Shown here in pieces: positions 234 through 52,400 of a stretch of DNA of 55,972 nucleotides. The notes below the pieces were generated by a model that saw nothing but the letters and a program-made list of their open reading frames with translations, made no database searches and was not told the origin of the DNA. The stretch comes from a bacterium (lineage in GTDB: Bacteria > Patescibacteriota > Minisyncoccia > JAUYLV01): positions 1 to 55,972 of the forward strand of contig JAUSGO010000003.1 of the NCBI GenBank assembly GCA_030649025.1, written 5' to 3'. The stretch's first letter is position 1, and every line of letters starts with the position of its first letter. Both the position numbers and the translations under genes were made by a program.

Positions 234-321
234 ATTCAATTTTCGGAACTCAAGGGAGGGATCCCTTTAATGACATTGGGAGGGTTGAAGAGTGTGCCTC
301 CCTTGGTGGAGAAAATTGGAT
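234..321 (-). repeat. GGGAGG structured repeat, copy 1
   Basis: Read on the minus strand this is the same roughly 60-nt core as at 11921-11984 and 16069-16164: CAAGGGAGG, then TTCAACCCTCCCAA, then GATCCCTCCCTTG. An outer stem CAATTTTC/GAAAATTG (237-244 with 311-318) closes it. It lies between the PGI/PMI gene and tRNA-Leu, both on the minus strand. Confidence 0.7.
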
Positions 322-343
322 TGGCTCGGTGTTTGTGAGGCCG

Positions 344-1979: not shown

Positions 1980-3728
1980 TCAGCGCCATTCGCGCTTCGT
2001 CTTCACATACCAATCTTCCGCATTTCCGAACCGTTCGGCCGGATTTGCGATAATGCCGGTGTTGATGTTTTTTATATGCGGCAAGACCACGTAGAGATAG
2101 TCCGGAGATACGAGGAATAATGCAGGAATATCGTCTGAAACCATTTTTTGGAAATCGGCAAGTTTCTTTTTTCGCCCCGCCTCATCACTGGTCTGGCGGA
2201 CTTCCTCAAGGATCCTATCTACTTTGGGATTCTGGTAGAGTGAAAGATTAAGTCCCGGATCGCGCCTTTGTGAAGAATGCCAGAATGAATAAGGGTCCGG
2301 ATCAAGTCCGAGCACATAACCGAACAGTACCGCATCGTATTGCCGGGGACGCACGCGCTCACCCTGAATATCCGCCACGCCCGCAATTTCCACATCAACC
2401 CGGGCACCGGCTGCTTCCCACTGGGTTTTTAACAACTCGGCGGATTTCTCAAGTTCGGGCAGATTTGCGGTAAGCAAGGAGAACTCGAGCGTCGTGGTTA
2501 CAACGACATCCCGAAGGACTTTTTTGTTTTTTACCACCTGTTCCTCCTTCTTTGTTTCTTTCAATTCGCGTACGCCTTCGGCATTCAACTTCCAGCCGGC
2601 CTTTTCTAAAATAGTTGTGGCTTTGTTCTTGTCATATTCTCGTTTTGTCACATCCGGGGTATAGCCGAGCACCGAAGGGGGCATTGGGCCGTGCACAATA
2701 TCGGCATATCCGCTATAAGCGCCCTCTTTGATCTGTTGGCGATCGGTAGCAAATTCCAGGGCTTCTCGTACTGTTTTTTGAGCAAGAACTTTTGATTGAT
2801 TCTGGTTGAAAAAAACGGAAAAGATTCGAGGAATATGCAGGGCATGTATAGCAAACTTTTGGGGCCCGAAAGAGGCAAGATCATCCGATGAAACAAATCC
2901 CATGCCTTCCGCGTCTCCCTTAGCAATAGCTCCAATCGCCTCATCGCGGCTCTCAAAAAATCTCATGATCAGGCGGTCTAGATACGGCGGCCTTCGATAA
3001 TATGATTTGTTGCTCTCCAGAGTGATTGAAACTACAATTCCGTCTTTTTCACGCACAAACTCTTTAAAGCGGAAAGGGCCAGATCCTACGGGTTTAAGAT
3101 TGAGATCGCTCAAGGAGAACGCTTGGGAAGATACATCCTGCCAAAGATGCTTTGGCAGGATGCCGACGGCAGTATGGGAAAGGAACGATATGTAGGGACT
3201 GGGGAGAATGAAAGCTATCGTGTAATCATCTTTTTTTTCCACCTTTACGCCTTGCCACGCGAAGCGCAAAGGGCTTTGATATTCGGGATTCTGAATAAGA
3301 TGGACCGTGAAGGCGACATCGTCCGCGGTAAGCGGAATTCCGTCGTGCCACTTTACGTTGTCTCGAAGTGAAAACACGAACGTTCGCGAATCCGTAGAAA
3401 CCGTATAAGAATCGGCAAGATCGGGAACGATGATGCCGGTGTCGTTATAGCGCGTAAGACCCGAATAAATGAGTCTTACCAAATCCCGATCTGCGTCATT
3501 TGCGGGCGCGAGAGCGGGGTTTATGAAACGCGGACCCCCTACTATCGCTTCGGTGTACGAACCGCCGGATGCAGGAACTCGAATGGTGTGGGTTGCGGCG
3601 TATAGCACGCCCGTACCGATACCGGAAACGAGAAACAGTATCGAGGCAAGATAAAAAAGAGCGCGTTCAAGCGGAGTAAACGATCGATAGCTTTCCTGGA
3701 GCATCTGACGTGTAAAGAAGCGAATCAT
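1980..3728 (-). CDS. Peptide ABC transporter substrate-binding protein (family 5)
   Basis: About 582 residues. It is an OppA/DppA-type solute-binding protein: an N-terminal membrane segment (ALFYLASILFLVSGIGTGVLYA), then the family signature region GGPRFINPALAPANDADRDLVRLIYSGLTRYN and WHDGIPLTADDVAFT, and a C-terminal lobe. It would capture extracellular oligopeptides at the cell surface; no permease or ATPase genes are in the window. The start ATG at 3728 overlaps the secG stop in ATGA, so the two are translationally coupled. A longer reading from 3791 would run inside secG and is less likely. Confidence 0.88.
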   Translation of the reverse strand: MIRFFTRQMLQESYRSFTPLERALFYLASILFLVSGIGTGVLYAATHTIRVPASGGSYTEAIVGGPRFINPALAPANDADRDLVRLIYSGLTRYNDTGIIVPDLADSYTVSTDSRTFVFSLRDNVKWHDGIPLTADDVAFTVHLIQNPEYQSPLRFAWQGVKVEKKDDYTIAFILPSPYISFLSHTAVGILPKHLWQDVSSQAFSLSDLNLKPVGSGPFRFKEFVREKDGIVVSITLESNKSYYRRPPYLDRLIMRFFESRDEAIGAIAKGDAEGMGFVSSDDLASFGPQKFAIHALHIPRIFSVFFNQNQSKVLAQKTVREALEFATDRQQIKEGAYSGYADIVHGPMPPSVLGYTPDVTKREYDKNKATTILEKAGWKLNAEGVRELKETKKEEQVVKNKKVLRDVVVTTTLEFSLLTANLPELEKSAELLKTQWEAAGARVDVEIAGVADIQGERVRPRQYDAVLFGYVLGLDPDPYSFWHSSQRRDPGLNLSLYQNPKVDRILEEVRQTSDEAGRKKKLADFQKMVSDDIPALFLVSPDYLYVVLPHIKNINTGIIANPAERFGNAEDWYVKTKREWR

Positions 3729-3949
3729 CTGACAAAGGTGTTGAAGAGGCCCAAGCCCATAAAGAGCGCGGCAAGAACGACAGTTGCCCACAAAAGGCCC
3801 TTTTCGATACCGCGTTTCGTTCGGTACACGTTTGAATCACCGCCGAATGCCGCAGAGAGTCCTGAACCGCGCTGTTGCAGAAGGATAGATCCCATGAGCA
3901 AAAACGCAATGACGATTTGCGCTATGTTGATGATGAGAGAGTAGTTCAT
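3725..3949 (-). CDS. secG: Preprotein translocase subunit SecG
   Basis: 74 residues with the SecG layout: helix IAQIVIAFLLMGSILLQ, the polar loop QRGSGLSAAFGGDSNVYRTKRGIEK, and a second helix LLWATVVLAALFMGLGLF. It is a small subunit of the SecYEG export channel. Its ATGAA start codon coincides with the end of a palindromic element (CTAACGGGATGAA), so the element forms the 5' untranslated region. It overlaps the following substrate-binding protein gene by 4 nt. Confidence 0.93.
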   Translation of the reverse strand: MNYSLIINIAQIVIAFLLMGSILLQQRGSGLSAAFGGDSNVYRTKRGIEKGLLWATVVLAALFMGLGLFNTFVR

Positions 3950-4189
3950 CCCGTTAGAGGCAGGCCCCGTTAGAAATAGGACGCGGACTGGCTGGTCTTT
4001 GTCCTTGCGGGACTGCCATTAATTTTGGTAATAACTTTGGCCATCATACCTACCTTACCATGCGTCCGCTATTTCTAACGGGGCAGGTCGCGGTCATTTG
4101 GAACCGTGATGCCAGTAAATTAGCAAGAATTTATTAAAAAAAGTTTACTTTATTGGAATCTTCGCGAGCCCCCGTGGCCTCTAACGGGA
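3950..4189. mobile_element. Palindromic element A1 (outer, interrupted)
   Basis: Terminal inverted repeats CCCGTTAGAGG (3950-3960) and CCTCTAACGGG (4178-4188), flanked on both sides by TTCAT (3945-3949 and 4190-4194). A second element is inserted after position 3964. With the insertion and one CAGG removed it is about 117 bp, and its left end (GTTAGAGGCAGGTCGCGGTC) matches the copy at 51476-51589 (GTTAGAGGTAGATCGCGATC). It encodes no protein. Confidence 0.85.
3965..4083. mobile_element. Palindromic element (inner, nested)
   Basis: 119 bp with inverted ends CCCCGTTAGAAATAG and CTATTTCTAACGGGG, flanked by a direct duplication CAGG (3961-3964 and 4084-4087). The ends resemble those of the outer element (CCCGTTAG), so the two may share mobilisation machinery. 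It has no open reading frame of note. Confidence 0.85.
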
Positions 4190-4205
4190 TTCATGTGTTG
4201 TCGTT

Positions 4206-11885: not shown

Positions 11886-11922
11886 ACTGCCCGCGAAAAG
11901 CAAAGCCATTTGCTTTTCGCCC
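11886..11922 (+). repeat. TGCCCGCGAAA hairpin repeat, copy 3
   Basis: Arms GCGAAAAGCAAA/TTTGCTTTTCGC with loop GCCA, preceded by GAACTGCCC and followed by CC. The flanks match copies 1 and 2, while the upper stem differs on both sides so that pairing is kept. Confidence 0.75.
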
Positions 11923-11984
11923 AACAAGGGAGGAGCACGATTCAACCCTCCCAAAGTTAAAGATTCGATCCCTCCCTAATTTAC
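11921..11984 (+). repeat. GGGAGG structured repeat, copy 2
   Basis: Core CAACAAGGGAGG, TTCAACCCTCCCAAAG, GATTCGATCCCTCCCT directly after the hairpin repeat and 22 nt before the dnaK start. No outer stem is visible in this copy. Confidence 0.75.
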
Positions 11985-14909: not shown

Positions 14910-14938
14910 ATGTTACCATTAAAGCAAGTATCTGTCAA
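14910..14938 (-). promoter_or_regulatory. Promoter of the three-gene cassette, -35 at a mobile-element junction
   Basis: On the minus strand, TTGACA - 17 nt - TAACAT. The TTGACA is made of the TCAA duplication beside element B1 plus two more flanking bases, right next to the element's GGGGG end. Confidence 0.6.
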
Positions 14939-15069
14939 CCCCCACACTAATAGTAGGCACTTAGTGAATACACACGCATATCAAAAGTTTTGTTTTTGAG
15001 AAAATTTTTCTTTTGCCACAGATACTATTTGCGGCGCTCTGCGCCGTCAGCCCACTATTAGTGTGGGGG
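14939..15069. mobile_element. Palindromic element B1
   Basis: 131 bp with perfect 16-bp inverted ends CCCCCACACTAATAGT/ACTATTAGTGTGGGGG and 4-bp direct flanks TCAA (14935-14938, 15070-15073). A GGCGC-tct-GCGCC hairpin lies just inside the right end. The gap of 263 bases between the 31-residue gene and the next gene is mostly this element. Confidence 0.85.
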
Positions 15070-15118
15070 TCAATAGCTCGCGTGTTTGATGTAAAAAGTG
15101 TATACTTGAATTATCTGC

Positions 15119-16068: not shown

Positions 16069-16164
16069 GTTTTGCAATTTTTCTTCAACAAGGGAGGTGC
16101 ACGTTTCAACCCTCCCAAAGCTAAAGATTCGATCCCTCCCTTGATTTACGAAAAATTGCAAAAC
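16069..16164 (+). repeat. GGGAGG structured repeat, copy 3 (complete)
   Basis: A perfect 15-bp outer stem GTTTTGCAATTTTTC/GAAAAATTGCAAAAC (16069-16083 with 16150-16164) encloses the core AACAAGGGAGG, TTCAACCCTCCCAAAG, GATTCGATCCCTCCCTTG. The GGGAGG segment can pair with either of two CCTCCC segments. Confidence 0.8.
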
Positions 16165-44300: not shown

Positions 44301-44328
44301 ACTCTAACATGCAAGAATTTGATGTCAA
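44301..44328 (-). promoter_or_regulatory. Promoter with -35 at a mobile-element junction
   Basis: On the minus strand TTGACA (44323-44328) - 16 nt - TAGAGT (44301-44306), upstream of the metallophosphoesterase gene. As at 14933, the TTGACA contains the TCAA duplication next to the element's GGGGG end. Confidence 0.55.
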
Positions 44329-44461
44329 CCCCCACACTAATTGTCTGCATGTGGATATCCCCTTAGGTTATCGCGCTGGCTTACTTTATTGGTGAATATT
44401 TCACTTTTCAATCATATTATTTACGACGCCTTGCGTCGTTACCAGACAATTAGTGTAGGGG
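44329..44461. mobile_element. Palindromic element B2
   Basis: 133 bp with ends CCCCCACACTAATTGTCTG and CAGACAATTAGTGTAGGGG, flanked by TCAA on both sides (44325-44328, 44462-44465). A GACGC-ctt-GCGTC hairpin lies inside the right end at the place where B1 has GGCGC-tct-GCGCC. Confidence 0.85.
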
Positions 44462-44531
44462 TCAATGGTGGATAATCGGAAAAACCTCTCCAAACACATT
44501 TTTACAATAAAATCAAGAAAACGGGCCTCTC

Positions 44532-50746: not shown

Positions 50747-51475
50747 TTAGATTAATATCCGGGGTTCAAGAGTTATGACGGAGTCGATCTCGGCGTTGAT
50801 ACGCTTCACGGCTTCAAGGGGGCTTCCAACATCTCCCGATGCCTCCGTAATGGGGCGTCCGATGATAAGATAATCTGCGCCAGCCTGTATCGCTTCTTGA
50901 GGAGTAAGCGTTCTTTTTTGGTCGTTCTTTGATGCCCAAGAAGGACGTACGCCGGGAGTCGCAAGCGCCATATGTTCAAAAGCGGCTTGCTTCCGAAGTA
51001 ACGCAGCTTCACTCGGGGAACAGATAATGCCATCTGCGTGTTCTTGAACAAGAATATGCGCAAACTGAATGACTTTTCTGTCCGGTCCCTCTCTGTATAT
51101 CTCAACGGAGTCTTTTTTCTCCAGAGAAGAAAGCACCGTGACTCCCCATACAAGACTCTCTTTTTTATGGGCTACGGCCGCGCGAAAAGATTCGCGACCA
51201 CCCGAAGCATGAACGCTGAACATCCGCACACCGAGGCGCGACACTGCCGCCGATGCTCTCCCTACGGTGTTGGGTATATCGTGGAACTTGCCGTCAAAAA
51301 AGACCTTGGCGCCAAGGTCTTTAAGAAGTTGAATGGCTTTGGGCGCTCCCAGAGCAGTGATAAGTTCAAGCCCTATTTTTACGCATGCGACCTGGCCAAT
51401 CAGCATCTCAACAAGCGACCGTGCTTTTTCCGGATCGCTAACATCGAGTGCAAGAATGATCCTGTTATCCTTCAT
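50747..51475 (-). CDS. pyrF: Orotidine-5'-phosphate decarboxylase
   Basis: 242 residues: ILALDVSDPEKA, CVKIGLELI, the catalytic FFDGKFHDIPNTV (Asp-Lys-Asp set), and LATPGVRPSW near the phosphate site. It converts OMP to UMP. Its ATGAA start is fused to the end of palindromic element A2 (CTAACGGGATGAA). Confidence 0.95.
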   Translation of the reverse strand: MKDNRIILALDVSDPEKARSLVEMLIGQVACVKIGLELITALGAPKAIQLLKDLGAKVFFDGKFHDIPNTVGRASAAVSRLGVRMFSVHASGGRESFRAAVAHKKESLVWGVTVLSSLEKKDSVEIYREGPDRKVIQFAHILVQEHADGIICSPSEAALLRKQAAFEHMALATPGVRPSWASKNDQKRTLTPQEAIQAGADYLIIGRPITEASGDVGSPLEAVKRINAEIDSVITLEPRILI

Positions 51476-51589
51476 CCCGTTAGAGGTAGATCGCGATCAA
51501 AAAAATAGTGCGACCTATCCACCGTATTTATTTTGTAATAAATTTGTTTATACCTTCAATTATGTAAGCGATTGCGACCTCTAACGGGA
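51476..51589. mobile_element. Palindromic element A2
   Basis: 114 bp with inverted ends CCCGTTAGAGG/CCTCTAACGGG, flanked by TTCAT on both sides (51471-51475 and 51590-51594). The left flank contains the pyrF start codon and the right flank the ftsQ stop codon, both on the minus strand. Confidence 0.87.
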
Positions 51590-51590
51590 T

Positions 51591-52400
51591 TCATTGCGGC
51601 GAAGTAAGAATCGTAGTTTTGTAATATACGCGGTTATCGATCCGCAGGTCAATATACTCAATTTTTTTATCCGTGCCTATCGCCGCCAGGGTCTTTTGTA
51701 GGGCATCAAGAACTTCTAGAGAGGGCTTGGAAATATTAAACATTAACCTCCAGTCCCCCACCATGTTCGCAGTCACATCCGGCATATTGTCCAGAAAAAA
51801 ATCTTTCACGGCAAGCGCAAACCTGTCTCGGAGTGTGTTGCGTAGCATTGCAAGGGAAGCGAGGGAGGAACCGTCCATCACCGTATCCCCTAGCTTCAGT
51901 GGCAAGCTGCTTTTAAGAATGAAAACGAGGGTTCCGGAGGAGCTTGCGGCGTCGCGATAAAGTACTCCCTGGATATCCATCAGGTAGCAGGACATTGAGC
52001 CAGTCGAACACCACGTTGCTGCATACTCGCGTTCTTTCACATTAAGTCGGACAATGTGAGGAAAGGCCTTCGCGATGGCTACGGAGGCAAGCGCCGGAAA
52101 GCGGTTTTCAACCAGAGCCTGAAGATCTGCGGGGGATACGAAGAAATAGTTGTTGTTTATCGTAAGACCCCATGCAGTTTTCTCGCTCAAATACCCAAGG
52201 ACTACCTCGCGAATATCCGCGTGATTTTCTATACCCCTAACTTCAATGCGGTCAATAGAAAAGATGTTTGAGAAAAAAAAATAATATGCTCCTCCGCCAA
52301 TGATGCTTGAGGAAATAAAAAACCAAAAAAACATCTTTTTGAACAGCTGTTTGTATCTGAGGGGGTGACGGCGTTTCGCGACATAGGGATAGTAGGCCAT
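51591..52400 (-). CDS. ftsQ: Cell division protein FtsQ/DivIB-like
   Basis: 269 residues: a basic N-terminus, one membrane helix (MFFWFFISSSIIGGGAYYFFF), a POTRA domain (FSIDRIEVRGIENHADIREVVLGYL) and an FtsQ beta domain (FPHIVRLNVKEREYAATW, LMDIQGVLYR, IEYIDLRIDNRVYYKT). It recruits septum proteins. The stop codon lies in the TTCAT flank of element A2. Confidence 0.82.
   Translation of the reverse strand: MAYYPYVAKRRHPLRYKQLFKKMFFWFFISSSIIGGGAYYFFFSNIFSIDRIEVRGIENHADIREVVLGYLSEKTAWGLTINNNYFFVSPADLQALVENRFPALASVAIAKAFPHIVRLNVKEREYAATWCSTGSMSCYLMDIQGVLYRDAASSSGTLVFILKSSLPLKLGDTVMDGSSLASLAMLRNTLRDRFALAVKDFFLDNMPDVTANMVGDWRLMFNISKPSLEVLDALQKTLAAIGTDKKIEYIDLRIDNRVYYKTTILTSPQ

Follow-up and report, generated by a model that had tools for sequence, protein, structure and literature searches.

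Two genes of a 55,972-nucleotide stretch of Patescibacteria DNA (the window), secG and pyrF, begin exactly where a short element with inverted repeats ends. How does an inserted sequence come to lie against a start codon, and which enzyme could have placed it there? The preliminary description reported both copies with a TTCAT on each side, and proposed that the element either targets TTCAT/ATGAA or carries its own ATGAA, in either case replacing the 5′ untranslated region of the two genes.

Insertions at the start codons of pyrF and secG

Both reported copies are present, each between TTCA duplications. The copy at pyrF (window 51471–51593) comprises the following features:

50747–51475, minus strand: pyrF, orotidine-5′-phosphate decarboxylase by reading of the translation; the A of its start codon is the element's terminal base
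51471–51474, no strand: target-site duplication TTCA (TGAA on the pyrF strand), which supplies the TG of the pyrF ATG
51475–51589, minus strand: non-autonomous element abutting the pyrF ATG; plus strand T-CCCGTTAGAGGT...ACCTCTAACGGG-A
51590–51593, no strand: second target-site duplication TTCA, in which the ftsQ-like gene upstream has its TGA stop
51591–52400, minus strand: upstream FtsQ-like gene, by reading of the translation, with its TGA stop inside the duplication

The pyrF reading frame begins exactly at the element end. The flank is repeated on each side as reported, at 4 rather than 5 bp, the outer T being the element's own terminal base. Each half of the proposed alternative thus captured part of the arrangement: the element gives the A of the start codon, and the duplication gives the TG. 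Because the ftsQ-like TGA stop lies within the other duplicate, the empty site was probably an ATGA overlap of stop and start. The 5′ untranslated region was not simply replaced, since the old start-codon copy and the upstream region of pyrF are retained ~115 bp upstream, where that copy still overlaps the ftsQ-like stop codon.

The copy at secG (window 3945–4193) has the same relation to its gene and contains a second element:

3727–3949, minus strand: secG, SecG by reading of the translation; the A of its start codon is the element's terminal base
3945–3948, no strand: target-site duplication TTCA
3949–4189, minus strand: outer element abutting the secG ATG, split by the inner one
3961–3964, no strand: CAGG duplication of the inner insertion, left
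3965–4083, no strand: inner element (C-CCCGTTAGAAAT...ATTTCTAACGGG-G), nested within the outer
4084–4087, no strand: CAGG duplication of the inner insertion, right
4190–4193, no strand: other target-site duplication TTCA

Here too, the reading frame begins exactly at the element end. An uninterrupted paralogue of the outer element (L029) reads GAGGCAGGTCGCGG across the inner insertion point, and the comparison of this empty sequence with the filled secG copy fixes both the duplication length and the terminal bases: the duplication is 4 bp, and the outermost pyrimidine and purine are part of the element. Elements with different interiors stand before secG in two families of the class; four other relatives that we read have none there.

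Ends, target and spread of the family

The family has the anatomy of mobile DNA: its copies read YCCCGTTAGARRY...RYYTCTAACGGGR and lie between the two halves of a target duplication of 4 bp (TTCA/TGAA in the window), combining the terminal inverted repeats (TIRs) and target-site duplication (TSD) of a MITE. Among 188 distinct copies, found by exact TIRs so that decayed ones are missed, the outer bases are complementary in 180 (expected 94, sd 6.7), the 4-bp duplication is exact in 121 (expected 19, sd 3.7; maximum 31 across 1000 shuffles), and the three bases inside both ends are identical in 152 (23 expected), though differing between elements; such counts are inflated by relatedness of copies within the family, except where clusters were used. 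A 5-bp asymmetric duplication was dropped, as matching at the outer position is explained by the 4-bp duplication together with target preference.

In the window's own genome (1.23 Mb), CCCGTTAGA matches 64 times and its reversed string 10 times. Of 55 related genomes, 20 contain the paired pattern, while the reversed control gave no match; the ATG-ended form of the pattern is present in 74 of the 384 genomes of the class. The genomes are mostly MAGs. A scan of GTDB contigs returned at least 114 loci, mostly in Patescibacteria, with other hosts in Omnitrophota, Deltaproteobacteria, Planctomycetota, Nitrospirae and WOR-3; a phage vector was rejected, just three viral contigs bearing the pattern. 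Most copies are 45–130 bp long and non-autonomous. Copying has been recent: copies that are 96–98.6% identical lie in unrelated contexts, with homology stopping at the element edges, and the rplN–rplX junction of one genome (G053) holds three tandem copies where relatives have spacers of 6–7 nt. A variant element with CCCGTACGA ends (L034:2400–2527) forms a tandem array with two CCCGTTAGA elements ahead of rplX. In 17 cases in the fetched loci, an upstream gene reads into the element end and terminates at a TAG inside CCCGTTAGA, the TIR thus providing a new stop codon.

Gene starts were judged from open frames: in 108 of the 188 copies, from many genomes, one end coincides exactly with an ATG or GTG followed by 50 or more open codons. 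At outward ATG ends, frame 0 is open in 89 of 103 cases, against 1 and 10 for the other frames; a second, ATG-selected set gives 94 of 102 against 1 and 10. When ATGs that open 80 codons or more are counted by their distance from the element end, 75 stand at distance 0, and no other distance up to 60 nt has more than four. Even hitting of ATG or ATGAA in starts and intergenic DNA would yield a start share of 15% or 24%, approximate values derived from simple ORF calls. The position at start codons is therefore far above chance, and tabulating start codons at copy ends, the check suggested in the preliminary description, yields strong enrichment at one end. Copies away from start codons, which it had named as contrary evidence, make up ~42%, so that the association is strong, not exclusive.

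The sequence that is hit can also be specified. Duplications at starts include TGAA, TGGA, TGAG, TGCG, TGCA and TGTA; the target is therefore the start codon, A^TGNN, and not the word ATGAA. Nor does the element carry an ATGAA of its own, as it contributes one base (A or G) and TGNN is target duplication. The base just outside the left duplicate, which is not part of the element, is A in 83 of the 108 start copies. Where the element ends in G, the left, upstream duplicate still reads ATG in 13 of 21 cases while the gene now starts with GTG in 19 of 21, from which it follows that the target was a start codon; these insertions turned an ATG start into GTG. We infer that start codons are chosen at insertion, not merely by survival.

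Many non-autonomous start copies contain a mini-ORF, opened by an ATG in frame 0 and closed by a TAA (46 of 106 and 53 of 94 in two sets, with 18/13 and 18/8 in the other frames), a bias that is kept after clustering (54.6/23.2/15.5 of 119) and is not seen in non-start copies. The mini-ORF ends 4 nt before the gene start, at the TAA of TC-TAA-CGGG-ATG; the pyrF copy of the window has no ATG mini-ORF. Codon-level selection on the peptides was not detected, and they are not conserved, so that the open frame, not the product, would matter. Mini-ORFs beside gene starts suggest translational coupling, with termination–reinitiation as the probable favoured route of host-gene expression. Shine-Dalgarno sequences are not enriched within or above the element, and a universal upstream −10 box, as for leaderless genes, was rejected, being present in just ~13%.

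The same frame bias, restricted as it is to start-codon copies, bears on a different account, in which insertion occurs at any RTNNAY site and positive selection retains start copies as leader or translation-control modules. We regard this as possible but doubtful. Non-start copies with TNNA duplications do exist; however, the start-codon share lies far above the intergenic offer across unrelated genes, the peptides are not conserved, and independent secG copies have unrelated interiors.

A GIY-YIG nuclease between the same ends

Recurrent copies of 273–280 bp with the same ends, a form missing from the preliminary description and situated elsewhere in the window's own genome, as well as in dozens of other genomes, contain one ORF, a GIY-YIG nuclease consisting of a single 85-residue protein (Pfam GIY-YIG match, E 5.9e-15). 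Its AlphaFold model has a pLDDT of 88, and the top fold matches are all GIY-YIG proteins (UPF0213, Slx1, I-TevI). Together with the fold, the protein has the catalytic Tyr/Tyr/Arg/Glu (Asn) set of this superfamily; Y3, Y5, Y16, G18, R26, H30, E62 and N76 are invariant. The same ends bound 25 of the 30 best homologues of the nuclease P0001 within the class.

The reading frame is joined to both the ends and the target. The right inverted repeat encodes the C-terminus of the nuclease (...RFLSLTG, with LxLTG near-invariant). In 27 of 31 copies the frame closes at the TGA within the target's ATGA; the other four frames end elsewhere. In 13 of the 31, the frame can be read without a stop from the left start codon, which belongs to the target, and four of these 13 have no other Met ahead of the YxG motif; some copies can therefore start only at the host gene's ATG. 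A few copies read through in frame. One of these, L380:538–810 (G273 C27), is a TIR-flanked GIY-YIG gene in frame at a GFTLIE pilin-like N-terminus, with the whole element open.

These coding copies share identical TIRs with the non-autonomous forms. ATG-ended MITEs of 108–128 bp occur in 28 of the 42 genomes with a close nuclease (E ≤ 1e-28), versus 46 of 342 others (p = 6e-13); 46 of the 74 MITE-bearing genomes are without a close nuclease at this threshold, and 14 nuclease genomes are without ATG-ended MITEs of this size. Since the nuclease is the only recurrent protein cargo, its C-terminus needs the ends, and no transposase-bearing copy of up to 5 kb was found in the fetched loci, we infer that it is the mobiliser and would catalyse transposition, and that the 273–280-bp copies would be autonomous. 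The nuclease may depend on host repair or on a partner that was not seen here. We know of no lone nuclease that pastes TIR elements; to our knowledge, prokaryotic TIR transposons use DDE, tyrosine, serine or Cas1-type enzymes.

Alternatively, these could be an ordinary MITE family moved in trans by a conventional transposase, with the GIY-YIG gene as hitchhiking cargo. The ends can carry other DNA, tRNA genes also being found as cargo, and many MITE genomes are without a close nuclease. Against this, no TIR pair of up to 5 kb in the fetched loci encloses a transposase, and the sole recurrent protein cargo across dozens of genomes is the GIY-YIG nuclease, whose conserved C-terminus is encoded by the TIR itself. 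Moreover, Y1 HUH transposases are absent from the window's own genome and from the copy-rich G007, G018, G027, G034 and G050; they do not track the elements, and a Y1/RAYT transposase was rejected as the mover. On balance, movement by a conventional transposase appears unlikely.

Other GIY-YIG genes and repeats were observed outside this family. The window holds two copies of a second family (14935–15073 and 44325–44465), with CCCCCACACTAATNGT inverted ends and TCAA duplications. As a GIY-YIG gene at L331 has near-identical ends (ACCCCCACACCTAATTTG) and a TCAA duplication, the CCCCCACACTAATNGT family is probably sister to the present one within a single class. At L331 and L332, the inverted repeats around GIY-YIG genes are of other kinds that begin with (A/G)CCC and have comparable duplications, so that the element class probably extends beyond the YCCCGTTAGARRY-ended family. 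Different inverted ends bound the GIY-YIG genes at L332 and L322, namely GCCCCTCACCCAGAAAGCCTTT, flanked externally by CCGTA repeats, and CCAGTTTTGTATCT, which an ACCCAG/CTGGGT pair encloses. At L009:4011–4099 (C2:18610–18698 of the window's own genome), the element interior is wholly a tRNA-Thr(TGT) gene whose acceptor stem abuts both inverted repeats, and elements at G002:C16:6644 and G018:C10:68507 likewise contain tRNA-like sequences. Another repeat, CAACAAGGGAGG...CCCTCCCT, is dispersed in direct and inverted copies at window positions 240–326, 11904–11977 and 16079–16154.

Taken from sequence, the explanation that we hold to be probable is a minimal transposable-element family, with an autonomous GIY-YIG form of ~275 bp and MITE-like derivatives of 45–130 bp that include the window copies. 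The autonomous form would be a gene for one GIY-YIG nuclease bounded by inverted repeats. Elements of the family go in behind the first base (A or G) of a start codon, ahead of its TG, and duplicate 4 bp. The left duplicate would retain the host gene's start signals, and begins the nuclease frame in ~40% of nuclease copies; at the right end, the terminal A or G and the duplicated TG restore a start codon. Translation from the left ATG or an internal ATG would pass through the nuclease or mini-ORF and stop beside the rebuilt start, at the TGA of ATGA for the nuclease and at the TAA of TC-TAA-CGGG-ATG for the mini-ORF, and the host gene would then be translated via termination–reinitiation.

Relation to known elements and significance

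The elements resemble MITEs and DDE insertion sequences in their inverted repeats, short duplication, many copies, nested and tandem copies, and small non-autonomous derivatives of a larger coding element, but differ in that the coding copy is ~275 bp long and encodes a GIY-YIG protein, not a DDE enzyme, and in their insertion at start codons. A 2024 review of prokaryotic MITEs makes no mention of GIY-YIG, 'nuclease' or 'start codon' (PMC10969869). GIY-YIG homing endonucleases such as I-TevI, and the UPF0213/Slx1 domain, share the catalytic domain and residues; in contrast to homing endonucleases, a lone 85-residue domain lies here between its own inverted repeats, with TSDs at many unrelated genes. 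As these duplications also differ, a homing endonuclease gene with one cognate allele was ruled out.

Rickettsia palindromic elements are likewise palindromic, about 100–150 bp long and tolerated by genes, but they lie inside ORFs in frame, while the present elements precede a rebuilt start codon, most copies abutting a start codon and a few reading through in frame; this comparison was made by description, not sequence. REP/RAYT sequences of the IS200/IS605 group share small hairpin repeats and a GTAG-like foot at one end (AGTAG, AGCAG). The present elements differ in their clear TSD and inverted ends and in the lack of a Y1 transposase in the window's own genome, and membership of IS200/IS605 or RAYT-REP, marked by absence of a TSD and by a Y1 HUH enzyme, was rejected.

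A study of CPR rRNA genes described GIY-YIG insertions that are neither group I nor group II introns, plus short ORF-less ones, left unexplained (PMC11270868). The CPR hosts, the GIY-YIG ORF and the lack of group I/II features are shared with our elements; compared by description, these insertions differ in being described solely inside rRNA genes, with inverted repeats not mentioned. Such insertions, the long complementary ends and the stable RNA fold of the window copy at pyrF would also suit an element acting on RNA, self-spliced or processed, whose hairpin is removed from the transcript. We consider this very improbable: stem mismatches have no excess of G-U over A-C on the sense strand (11 vs 15), the TSDs are of DNA type, and a covariance-model search (Rfam) of the window matched only a tRNA, with no family matching the element, on which ground a group I/II intron or known structured RNA was rejected.

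In the open literature, work on GIY-YIG transposons yielded no prokaryotic TIR element, and we found no description of an element of this kind, and titles among the matches listed for the TIR strings were unrelated to mobile elements. We lean towards regarding these elements as a new transposon superfamily, among the smallest self-encoded ones, whose sole enzyme would be an 85-residue GIY-YIG nuclease: an invader of start codons, translatable from its victim's ATG, that takes its stop from the target, rebuilds the ATG and leaves the host gene expressed by stop/start coupling. Their standing as something wholly new would hinge on transposition by the nuclease; judged by anatomy, they would be a new type of MITE.

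Even if the nuclease does not move the elements, their anatomy defines an undescribed MITE family with an unusual target. If a lone GIY-YIG nuclease is the mover, this would be a new transposition chemistry, near the lower size limit for a self-mobile gene. The elements may account for many lone GIY-YIG genes and for the CPR rRNA insertions left unexplained, both those with GIY-YIG and the short ones. Annotation is affected as well, since hundreds of Patescibacteria genes bear such inserts at their starts and in the sequence upstream. Furthermore, start-codon targeting with a rebuilt ATG would explain how mobile DNA builds up in the essential operons of very small genomes, including those of ribosomal proteins, secG and pyrF.
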